Of a DNA stretch of 64,000 nucleotides, positions 22,756 through 54,897 are shown in pieces (the stretch's first letter is position 1; every line of letters starts with the position of its first letter). The position numbers and the translations under genes were made by a program. The stretch is from Peptococcaceae bacterium BICA1-7 (GTDB lineage: Bacteria > Bacillota > Desulfotomaculia > Desulfotomaculales > Desulfocucumaceae), in assembly GCA_000802095.1 (NCBI GenBank), contig JUEB01000026.1, positions 496,001 to 560,000 of the forward strand, written 5' to 3'. Below the pieces are notes generated by a model. The model had not been told where the DNA came from. It ran no database searches and saw nothing but the letters and a program-made list of their open reading frames with translations.

Positions 22756-22800
22756 TAAAAAAACCGCCGGTATTGCGGCGGTGCCGTCTTGCAGACGGCG
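22756..22800 (-). terminator. Double-hairpin terminator, third of a series
   Basis: The minus strand reads a GCCGTC/GACGGC hairpin followed by CCGCCG CAATAC CGGCGG and TTTTTTT. It is nearly identical to the one at 15638-15680. An ATTCTG/ACAGGAGACAGAA repeat follows at 22800-22836. Confidence 0.6.
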
Positions 22801-22930
22801 GGGAGACAGGAGACAGAATAAGCGGGCATTTCCTGCAGCTCAAAGGCCCCCTGATAAGGAAGACCCCAAAAGGGGACAGGCTACTTTTTTACCGTTTGCC
22901 AAAAAGCGGTTACCAAAAGAGAGTGCCCTT

Positions 22931-23015
22931 CACTTTAGCGCTTTAAAGCGTCATATAGTACGCTGAACGATAAAAAAGCCGCCCTTTCGGGCGGAGCCGT
23001 CTTGACAGACGGCGG
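22931..23015. repeat. Direct repeat copy 1 (left flank of structured element 1), with terminator
   Basis: It begins CACTTTAGCGCTTTAAAGCG followed by TCATATAG, and ends in a minus-strand terminator (GGGCGG hairpin plus TTTTTT). A second copy starts at 23363, 432 bp away, and differs by one base in its first 28. The two copies bracket the structured element at 23099-23307. Confidence 0.7.
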
Positions 23016-23098
23016 AATCCAGAATTCAGAAGCCAGAATCCAGAATGAGCATGCATTTCTTACAGCAATATAGACCTCTTAGCGGCATGCATAGAGGG

Positions 23099-23307
23099 GG
23101 AGGGGGTTTAATCCAGGCGGACGTCCCGGAGGGTGCTACTGGCTCTTAGCGACAGAGCCATACGGACTGCCGAGCTGGCTGCAGGACGCAGCCAGCAGCC
23201 GGAATCGACGTCATGGATGCGGCGTTGGAGGCGGTCGGCAATCCGTTAGGCGACGAGCTTAGAGCCAGTTCAGCCGGAGGTCCGGGAGATCGGATTCAAC
23301 CCCCTCC
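23099..23307 (+). ncRNA. Structured element 1: predicted multi-stem RNA (family unknown)
   Basis: About 209 nt with nested pairing. P1: 23099-23114 with 23292-23307 (15 of 16 pairs). P2: TCCCGGA (23124) with TCCGGGA (23281). P3: ACTGGCTCT (23138) with AGAGCCAGT (23261). P4: ACGGACTGCCGA (23162) with TCGGCAATCCGT (23235). P5: CTGGCTGC AGGAC GCAGCCAG (23175-23195). P6: a hairpin with an ATGGAT loop (23206-23227). A second copy at 54604-54818 keeps every stem from P3 inward and has compensating base changes in P3 and P5, which supports selection on structure. G.U pairs in P6 favour the plus strand. No protein reading is convincing. The family is unknown to me. Confidence 0.6.
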
Positions 23308-23362
23308 ACCGGCCCTATAGCGACCAATGAATGACCCCCAAATACCCCAAAAACACTGCTTC

Positions 23363-23445
23363 CACTTTAGTGCTTTAAAGCGTCATATAGATTCCTGGAC
23401 AATAAAAAACCGCCGTTTCCGGCGGTGCCTTCTTTTTAAAGGCGG
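23363..23445. repeat. Direct repeat copy 2 (right flank of structured element 1), with terminator
   Basis: CACTTTAGTGCTTTAAAGCG plus TCATATAG matches the copy at 22931. It runs into a minus-strand terminator: CCGCCGGAAACGGCGG followed by TTTTTT, the first terminator met by transcripts from the acyl-CoA dehydrogenase gene. The rest of 23446-23636 holds an ATTCTG-type repeat (23563-23608) and no gene. Confidence 0.7.
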
Positions 23446-23636: not shown

Positions 23637-24779
23637 TTAAAGCCCCATTTCCTTGGCTATAATCATCTTCATAACTTCGGTGGTGCCGGCATAAATATTC
23701 TGCACCCTCATGTCCCTGAAGTCTCTGCTGATGGGGTACTCCTCCATATAGCCATACCCGCCGTATAGCTGCAGGCTCTGGTAAGCCACCCGGTTGGCCA
23801 TTTCGGTAATCCAGTACTTGGCCATGGAAACTCTCTTTACTATATTTTTGCCCAGCATATGGTCCTGGATAAGACTGTCCACAAACACCCTGCCCAGCTC
23901 AATTTCAGTGGCCATCTCCACAATTTTAAAGGAGTTGTGCTGGAACTTGGACACCGGCTTTCCAAAGATTGTGCGGCTGCCGCTGTATTCCACAGCCTCT
24001 TTAAGCATTTTCTCAGCACCGGCCTGGGCTCCTATGACACAGACCAGCCTTTCCTGCTGAAGCTTTTGCATAAGGTATAAAAAGCCGACATTTTCCTGAC
24101 CGATAAGGTTCTCCACCGGGACCCGGCAGTCCTCGAAGTACATCTCGGTGGTGTCCTGGCTCTTAAGTCCCATTTTTTTCAGCCTGCGCCCTTTTATAAA
24201 CCCGGGAGTTCCAGCCTCCACCACTATAAGGCTGACCCCCTGATAGGGGGGATTGGCCTCCGGGCTTGTTTTGCAGGCCGCTATCACTATATCGCAGTTG
24301 TGTCCCCCGGAAATAAAGGTTTTGGCCCCATTGAGCACATAGTGGTCCCCGTCTCTAATGGCGGTGGTCTTTATGGCCGCCAGGTCCGACCCGGTATTTG
24401 GCTCGGTCATGGCTATGGCAGCTATTATCTCCCCTGAAACACAGCCCGGCAGCCACCTTTTTTTCTGATCCGGGCTGCCAAAGCTGTTTATGTAGGGAAC
24501 AACAATTTCGCTGTGCAGTGGAAACATAACATTTGTACCATACCTGGCCAGTTCCTCAATAATTATTGCTGAATATCCGAAATCGGCCCCGGCGCCCCCG
24601 TACTCCTCCTCAGCCCAGGGGCAGAGGAAACCATTCTCGCCGCACCGCCGCCACACCTCCCTGGGCACCAGTCCCTCTTCTTCCCACTGATCGTAATTTG
24701 GCTTAAGCTCTGCCTCTATGTATTTTTTAAAAGAGTCCCTGAAAACCTTATAGTCCCCTCCATAAAGGTCAATACCCAC
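23637..24779 (-). CDS. Acyl-CoA dehydrogenase, long-chain (LCAD-like) type
   Basis: 380 aa from a GTG 7 nt after AAGGGGGG. FAD-dependent alpha,beta-dehydrogenation of acyl-CoA. AIAMTEPNTGSDLAAIKTTA and GAKTFISGGHNCDIVI are the flavin/substrate segments, and LQLYGGYGYMEEYPISRDFR the C-terminal signature. The usual catalytic Glu of the medium-chain type (YEGTxQIxR) is Ala here (IYAGTTEVMK), and instead LQQERL carries a Glu at the position used by long-chain and isovaleryl-CoA dehydrogenases. It follows an SDR gene on the same strand. Probably used in fatty or branched acid oxidation. Confidence 0.92.
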   Translation of the reverse strand: MGIDLYGGDYKVFRDSFKKYIEAELKPNYDQWEEEGLVPREVWRRCGENGFLCPWAEEEYGGAGADFGYSAIIIEELARYGTNVMFPLHSEIVVPYINSFGSPDQKKRWLPGCVSGEIIAAIAMTEPNTGSDLAAIKTTAIRDGDHYVLNGAKTFISGGHNCDIVIAACKTSPEANPPYQGVSLIVVEAGTPGFIKGRRLKKMGLKSQDTTEMYFEDCRVPVENLIGQENVGFLYLMQKLQQERLVCVIGAQAGAEKMLKEAVEYSGSRTIFGKPVSKFQHNSFKIVEMATEIELGRVFVDSLIQDHMLGKNIVKRVSMAKYWITEMANRVAYQSLQLYGGYGYMEEYPISRDFRDMRVQNIYAGTTEVMKMIIAKEMGL

Positions 24780-54494: not shown

Positions 54495-54603
54495 ATTAAC
54501 ATCCCAAGTTATCTATTCTCATTAATAACGCCAATAAGGAATGCCGCAGCCATTCTGTATTCTACCCTGAAAATACTGTCCCCCCTACTGTCCCCAAACC
54601 TTC

Positions 54604-54818
54604 CAGTCCGGGGTGTACGAGGGGGAGGAGGACCTTTCAGACCGGGCATTTCCACAGGTTGTTATCCGGCTCTTAGCGAAGGAGCATACGGAATGCCGAG
54701 CGGGCCGCAGGACGCGGCCGCAGTCCGAGTAGTGCATGGACGCACGTACGAGGACGGTCGGCAGGCCGTAAGCGACGAGCTTAGAGCCGGTTTCAACCGA
54801 GGACCAAGGCCCGGACTG
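54604..54818 (+). ncRNA. Structured element 2: predicted multi-stem RNA inside the Tad locus
   Basis: Second copy of the element at 23099-23307. P1: CAGTCCGGG (54604) with CCCGGACTG (54810). P2: GGTTG (54657) with CAACC (54794). P3: CCGGCTCT (54666) with AGAGCCGG (54783). P4: ACGGAATGCCGA (54688) with TCGGCAGGCCGT (54758). P5: GGCCGC AGGAC GCGGCC. P6: GTGC ATGGAC GCAC (54732-54745). Shared with copy 1: GGCTCTTAGCGA, AGGAC and ATGGAY loops, and GCGACGAGCTTAGAGCC. The outer stem has a different sequence but still pairs. The gap 54495-54603 and 54819-54897 has no gene; an ATTCTG-type repeat piece lies at 54535-54575. Confidence 0.6.
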
Positions 54819-54897
54819 AAAAACGGACTCCCCGGCCACAGATTTTCATGTCTTTGGTGCAGCACTTTGCGGCGGTTTCTCTGAATACAGAATAAAA

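Follow-up and report, generated by a model that had tools for sequence, protein, structure and literature searches.

A TwoAYGGAY-type RNA module in small mobile repeats of Peptococcaceae bacterium BICA1-7 and related genomes, with CsrA as a candidate ligand

We analyzed a highly structured intergenic element found at positions 23,099 to 23,307 of a 64,000-nucleotide stretch of the genome of Peptococcaceae bacterium BICA1-7 (contig JUEB01000026.1, positions 496,001 to 560,000; hereafter the window). The element is mobile and belongs to TwoAYGGAY (RF01731), an RNA family already described but of unproved function; both its membership of an Rfam family and its nature as a dispersed mobile repeat had been missed by an initial annotation made from the sequence. 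We read it as one of many copies of an RNA module of TwoAYGGAY type, housed in small non-autonomous repeats resembling miniature inverted-repeat transposable elements (MITEs), which on balance probably binds CsrA, a protein controlling many messenger RNAs. That the element is mobile and is a structured RNA, we hold with high confidence. Apparently new is the occurrence of the core in small, high-copy mobile elements whose ends come from no fewer than two transposase families, IS4 and IS1182, that are unrelated to each other. The accessible portions of PMC2864571, PMC4333381, PMC7657543 and PMC11701678 yielded neither a mention of TwoAYGGAY mobility or transposon carriage nor proof of a role for the family.

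The window copies and their RNA family

Two copies of the element lie in the window, and their parts are as follows.

23099..23307, + strand: element copy 1, outer stem and structured core (sequence, fold, blastn)
23124..23282, + strand: TwoAYGGAY (RF01731) core in copy 1 (40.2 bits, model positions 1-168, the full model; gathering score 43)
23139..23268, + strand: long stem P2 of copy 1, CTGGCTCTTAGCGA ... GCGACGAGCTTAGAGCCAG, around the branched core (fold, covariation)
23174..23196, + strand: hairpin P4 of copy 1, 9 bp, loop AGGAC (23183-23187), CsrA-site-like CAGGACG
23205..23228, + strand: hairpin P5 of copy 1, loop ATGGAT (23213-23218), CsrA-site-like CATGGATG
54604..54818, + strand: element copy 2, with the other flank type (sequence, fold)
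54650-54805: RF01731 match in copy 2 (27.8 bits)
54709..54741, + strand: loops of copy 2, AGGAC (54709-54713) and ATGGAC (54736-54741) (sequence)

The initial annotation had described nested stems in non-coding space at both places. The stems are present at both, both copies do lie between genes, and both fold far more stably than shuffled sequence: the minimum free energy as RNA is -131.2 kcal/mol for region 23080-23330 (200 shuffles: mean -96.8, standard deviation 4.6; z -7.5) and -127.6 kcal/mol for region 54584-54838 (z -5.8). The loops AGGAC and ATGGAY can be read directly in each copy, and the proposed boundaries fit, since six copies from the same genome (query included) align over query positions 1-209 at 92-100% identity in blastn. 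The description of copy 1 as the first of two is an undercount. Blastn of its 209 nucleotides against its own genome returned 20 rows at 19 places, of which those on contigs C4 and C29 hold opposite halves of the element, each running into group II-intron-like sequence. As these look like two halves of one split copy, we count about 18 loci. The insert that appears to split this copy (L092 at C29:1-560, and L008 on C4) lies inside stem P2, antisense to the element, and is presumably group II-intron-like, with a maturase-like frame.

At gathering scores, Rfam gave no match anywhere in the window. Scored against RF01731, copy 1 is nonetheless covered over the full length of the model (E 2.7e-5) and copy 2 is matched more weakly (E 0.019), so that the Rfam check proposed earlier does retrieve a family but leaves both copies under the cut-off of 43 bits. 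Sibling copies pass it: of nine RF01731 matches in the same genome, six score above the cut-off, at 48.5-65.7 bits. The repeat family thus qualifies as RF01731, which the two window copies alone do not. Like TwoAYGGAY, the window element has a branched core in which two hairpins end in (A)YGGAY-type terminal loops; it differs from the family in the sub-threshold scores of the window copies. DUF3800-associated RNA was rejected as a candidate identity because PF12686 (DUF3800) was not found in the genome at E 0.001.

Among eight related genomes, RF01731 matches number 9 in the window's own genome (G000), 115 in its sister genome (G001, a Peptococcaceae metagenome-assembled genome), 3 in G002, 1 in G005 and none in four others, with E up to 10. 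Blastn matched five of 60 genomes, own included (G000, G001, G002, G005 and G007), the last of which has blastn matches yet no RF01731 match. In a set of 398 genomes from the phylum, RF01731 is matched in 51 at E 0.001 and above the cut-off in 34; as no more than six candidates were scored for each genome in this set, per-genome copy numbers are at least the values obtained. Distant blastn against plasmid and phage collections gave no match.

Conservation of the fold as RNA

To measure conservation of the structure, we projected the copy 1 fold onto an alignment of 29 copies, all from the bacterial family to which the window belongs; RNAalifold on gapped alignments gave poor global structures. 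Pairs of inner P5 (misaligned between subtypes) and of outer P1 (many of them paired in <60% of rows) were excluded, and the structure so trimmed is paired in 90.1% of cells, a percentage that the exclusion of poorly aligned pairs favors. Changes on both sides of a pair occur in 56 cells, whereas shuffles give 11.7 and no slid control exceeds 15. In a set of 41 diverse copies, 79.3% of cells in the two hairpins are paired and 182 are double-changed (shuffles, 59; slid controls, no more than 69). GGA is kept in both loops of all 41 diverse copies, and in the bacterial-family copies it is kept in 28/29 for loop 1 and 29/29 for loop 2. The search for further copies and for covariation in homologues that had been proposed as a way of undoing the structured-RNA reading therefore clearly finds both.

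We also weighed the possibility that the fold serves as a palindromic arm or cruciform for transposases, or for terminator targets, with no role as RNA. Seen by eye, many units are indeed long inverted repeats, imperfect and with outer arms that are particular to each genome, and A-C 1x1 mismatches are barely rarer on the AYGGAY strand than on its complement (14 vs 18). The two strands are not equivalent, though: in 37 of the 41 copies it is the AYGGAY strand that has the more stable fold (Wilcoxon 1.1e-7), a difference to which sheared G-A pairs may contribute, and this strand is richer in G-U pairs (97/2524 vs 57/2481 on the complement). Together, strand stability and the G-U excess argue for function as RNA of the AYGGAY strand. 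The fixed loop sequence also speaks against a purely DNA-level role, which we consider unlikely.

A REP-like insert (repetitive extragenic palindromic, 'GGGGACATTCC ... GTGTCCCCTTTCC') occurs at about the same point in the 3' strand of the core in two genomes, in L007/L093 (G000 C9:234621-234691) and in L009 (G002).

Mobile carriers and gene context

In the sister genome, the core sits within a unit of ~450 bp whose ends are common to the copies while the sequence beyond differs from copy to copy, and copy 1 of the window is assigned to this type by its flanks. Such units are short, geneless and present in many dispersed copies, as MITEs are. At one sister-genome locus (L104 on contig C91), three unit copies of 442 bp stand in tandem and match at 100%.

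Placement among genes bears on a second alternative, in which the element acts in cis at the 3' end of genes, at terminators, and stabilizes, processes or terminates neighboring transcripts without CsrA. Of 145 copies, 126 could be fully classified (open reading frames from a simple script; the recount omits one doubled own-genome copy, L007 and L093, and two sister-genome repeats with identical flanks): tandem genes flank 84 of them, convergent genes 28 and divergent genes only 14, a distribution in keeping with a 3'-end element. In the window's own genome the right-hand gene points at the element in 17 of 18 copies, and in the sister genome, of 28 copies that have a recognized right end and distinct sequence beyond, 14 show the start of a hairpin no more than 14 nt from that end, a larger share than among random windows (342/4000) or windows starting with A5 (175/1074). 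Outside the own genome the orientation to neighboring genes is nevertheless mixed, the 17-of-18 pattern is not seen in the sister genome, and fixed GGA loops are left unexplained by action at a 3' end, which leaves this alternative rather improbable.

The same data bear on a riboswitch or leader serving a single class of genes, for which the Rfam type label, 'Cis-reg', could be cited. In its accessible part, Weinberg 2010 (PMC2864571) tabulates TwoAYGGAY as probably RNA and probably not cis-regulatory. No common neighbor gene was found among ten proteins around five loci, taken from the genomes each with a single match listed. The neighbors seen, which differ among the loci examined, include acyl-CoA dehydrogenase, parts of ABC transporters, a histidine kinase, ParA-like and FtsX proteins, and an AbiJ domain. 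With tens of copies per genome in G001, G017 and G309, often antisense to their neighbors, a riboswitch is extremely improbable.

A first transposase family emerges from copies on contigs C45 of the sister genome and C16 of the window's own. There, terminal inverted repeats (TIRs) of sequence AACTCAACTTTCGCA and its complement stand ~363 bp apart, with one mismatch at C16, and direct repeats of ~9-10 bp are seen by eye at C45. On contig C31 of the sister genome, the core and a transposase of the IS4 family (604 bits; cut-off 250) lie within ~1.9 kb between the same TIRs, one of them with a mismatch, and a further TIR copy inside is truncated. The IS4-type copies of C31, C45 and C16 thus have TIRs in common with an autonomous element, together with, at C45, a probable target duplication. 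They resemble IS4-family elements and their MITEs in TIR, in transposase and in the direct repeat at C45, and differ from them in that the unit carries a structured RNA core.

The second family was found in genomes G017 and G309, in which AGACTGWAGACAAA has 43 and 37 matches, respectively (reversed control: 0 and 1). Thirty of these 80 copies were fetched and examined: by eye, the core is present in 23 and absent or cut in 7 (a loose loop pattern gives 24 and 6), and one copy is inverted. On contig C59 of G309, the TIR of the core-bearing copies precedes a 234-aa fragment of an IS1182-family transposase, which scores 213 bits against a cut-off of 270 for the IS1182 model and 75 bits, above the cut-off, for PF05598. 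In 21 of the 30 copies, a direct repeat of 20-35 bp stands beside the TIR and scores above all 14 within-genome cross-pairings; 17 of these 21 repeats have a self-complementarity score of at least 17, as expected of terminator-like hairpins. The IS1182-type copies sit in transcription terminators, usually duplicating the whole hairpin. A similar arrangement is seen by eye in the window's own genome at L089, where GGGCCCCATAAAGGACCCC flanks both sides of the CAGACTGATGACAAA ... TTTGTCAACAACCTG ends.

The duplication is not general. In 48 copies from 28 other genomes, a clearly palindromic direct repeat was found only in L054 (G090); L038, L048 and L051 have strong direct repeats that are not clearly palindromic, and the direct repeat of L124 (G298) is no better than cross-pairings. 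A comparable known system is IS1272, a palindrome-targeting member of the IS1182 family, which in the accessible part of PMC5678879 is reported to replace a stem-loop and for which duplication of a whole stem-loop is pathway b of the model. Insertion at stem-loops and the IS1182-family fragment behind the G309 TIR are shared with it; the difference is that the stem-loop is replaced there, whereas the whole hairpin is duplicated in the G017 and G309 copies. That whole terminator hairpins of varied length are duplicated points to structure-guided choice of target by an IS1182-family transposase.

The location of IS1182-type copies in terminator hairpins is a further point for a fold that works as DNA. 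Against it, one core is common to elements whose transposases belong to two families unrelated to each other, and copies without the core are found at terminators too. Six IS1182-type derivatives are core-less or core-deleted (L164, L178, L182 and L192 in G017; L189 and L193 in G309), of which L164 and L192 have the same deletion junction at different sites. This suggests movement without the core, although repeated deletion between short repeats is possible.

A structured RNA in mobile elements, near one end of the IS4-type unit on C31, also recalls a stand-alone guide RNA (an omega RNA or bridge RNA) such as RNA-guided nucleases or recombinases of transposons use. HEARO/IscB omega RNA and IS605-associated families, which the initial annotation had suggested, are not supported, as none of their covariance models matched either copy up to E=10. 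With constant loops in place of variable guides, and linked transposases of the IS4 and IS1182 families, a guide RNA is very improbable.

CsrA as the candidate ligand

The reading we prefer, an RNA module that binds CsrA, draws on several comparisons. TwoAYGGAY and Escherichia coli CsrB share Rfam clan CL00106, and a link of TwoAYGGAY to CsrA has already been proposed (PMC4333381, accessible part). The conserved form of the loops is CA(N)GGAYG, with CAGGACG, CATGGATG, CATGGACG and CAGGATG dominating. The accessible part of PMC7652899 gives as forms of the CsrA site the CsrB repeat CAGGA(U/A/C)G, the consensus RUACARGGAUGU from systematic evolution of ligands by exponential enrichment (SELEX) and the RsmE hexaloop ANGGAN; the loop letters agree with the first and the last. 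GGA lies in hairpin loops, as in a CsrA site, on a longer stem and after a letter unlike that of the SELEX consensus. Loop-to-loop spacing is 27-32 nt in 34 of 40 copies, which is like that of sites for a CsrA dimer.

The genome distribution of csrA is consistent with such a link. The window's own genome has one csrA (E 1.3e-22), and the gene is present in 49 of 51 TwoAYGGAY genomes compared with 236 of 347 others (one-sided Fisher 3e-6, an optimistic P, as genomes were treated as independent). As a control, csrA is present in 154 of 195 genomes with PF05598 and in 131 of 203 without it, a weaker link (odds ratio 2.1).

Through this binding, the module might act as follows. The core would be transcribed mainly by read-through from neighboring genes, as many copies sit at terminators; its two loops would be occupied by a single CsrA dimer; and the copies, being many, could jointly form a dispersed decoy or sponge for CsrA, in principle like CsrB. 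Least certain is the final step, in which different transposons would retain the module since bound CsrA benefits the element or leads the host to tolerate it. CsrB and RsmZ small RNAs (E. coli CsrB, RF00018) share with TwoAYGGAY the GGA in hairpin loops, the clan and the CAGGA(U/A/C)G letters. They differ in that CsrB has ~18-22 GGA elements where TwoAYGGAY has two such loops, and in being encoded by one gene, in contrast to dispersed and mobile copies whose CsrA site is predicted.

Several observations weigh against this reading as a whole. Both window copies score under the Rfam cut-off (40.2 and 27.8 vs 43 bits), and TIRs and a transposase were looked for and not found for either window flank type. 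The P4 stem has 9 bp in copy 1, whereas most SELEX hairpins for CsrA have at most 4 bp and very stable stems may disfavor binding (PMC7652899, accessible part), and of 52 six-letter loops, 45 have a pyrimidine just ahead of GGA, where SELEX has a purine. The csrA association takes no account of phylogeny, and csrA-bearing genomes more often have PF05598; TwoAYGGAY itself does not track PF05598 (29/51 vs 166/347 genomes, not significant). No csrA was found in two TwoAYGGAY genomes, G236 (94% complete) and G288 (75%), and one damaged copy, L098, is without GGA in loop 1. The core-less copies at terminators imply that transposition may be able to proceed without the core. Taking both sides together, we lean toward a CsrA mechanism for the element. 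More tentatively, it is possible that the module is transposon cargo, a CsrB-like sponge that would tap host CsrA with tens to more than 100 dispersed copies and would have been captured independently by IS4, IS1182 and at least one further element family in the window's phylum.

Carriage as transposon cargo would explain the scattered, geneless occurrence of TwoAYGGAY and makes the CsrA idea testable, as the latter predicts CsrA binding, a high capacity for titration and a module that decays wherever csrA has disappeared. Should this hold, mobile elements would be carrying a decoy for a global regulator of their host.

The surroundings of copy 1 in the window hold three further features.

22758..22975, + strand: repeat unit preceding copy 1, without the TwoAYGGAY core (by eye)
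23390..23440, - strand: terminator-like hairpin with T tract (by eye)
23640..24770, - strand: acyl-CoA dehydrogenase neighbor gene (PF00441, PF02771, PF02770)

The first of these lies directly upstream, and its ends match those of the copy 1 unit (hairpin ... CTTTAGCGCTTTAAAGCGTCATATAG ... ATAAAA). The hairpin is downstream of the acyl-CoA dehydrogenase gene, and the copy 1 repeat unit ends beside it; homologues of this gene in G007 and G006 have a plain hairpin near the 3' end, no element, and different next genes. In G298, copies L126 and L127 are flanked by 'GAGTCACGGGGACGGTTCTNCTGACTCA'-type repeats, which we take to be possible REP elements of the kind associated with REP-associated tyrosine transposases (REP/RAYT).
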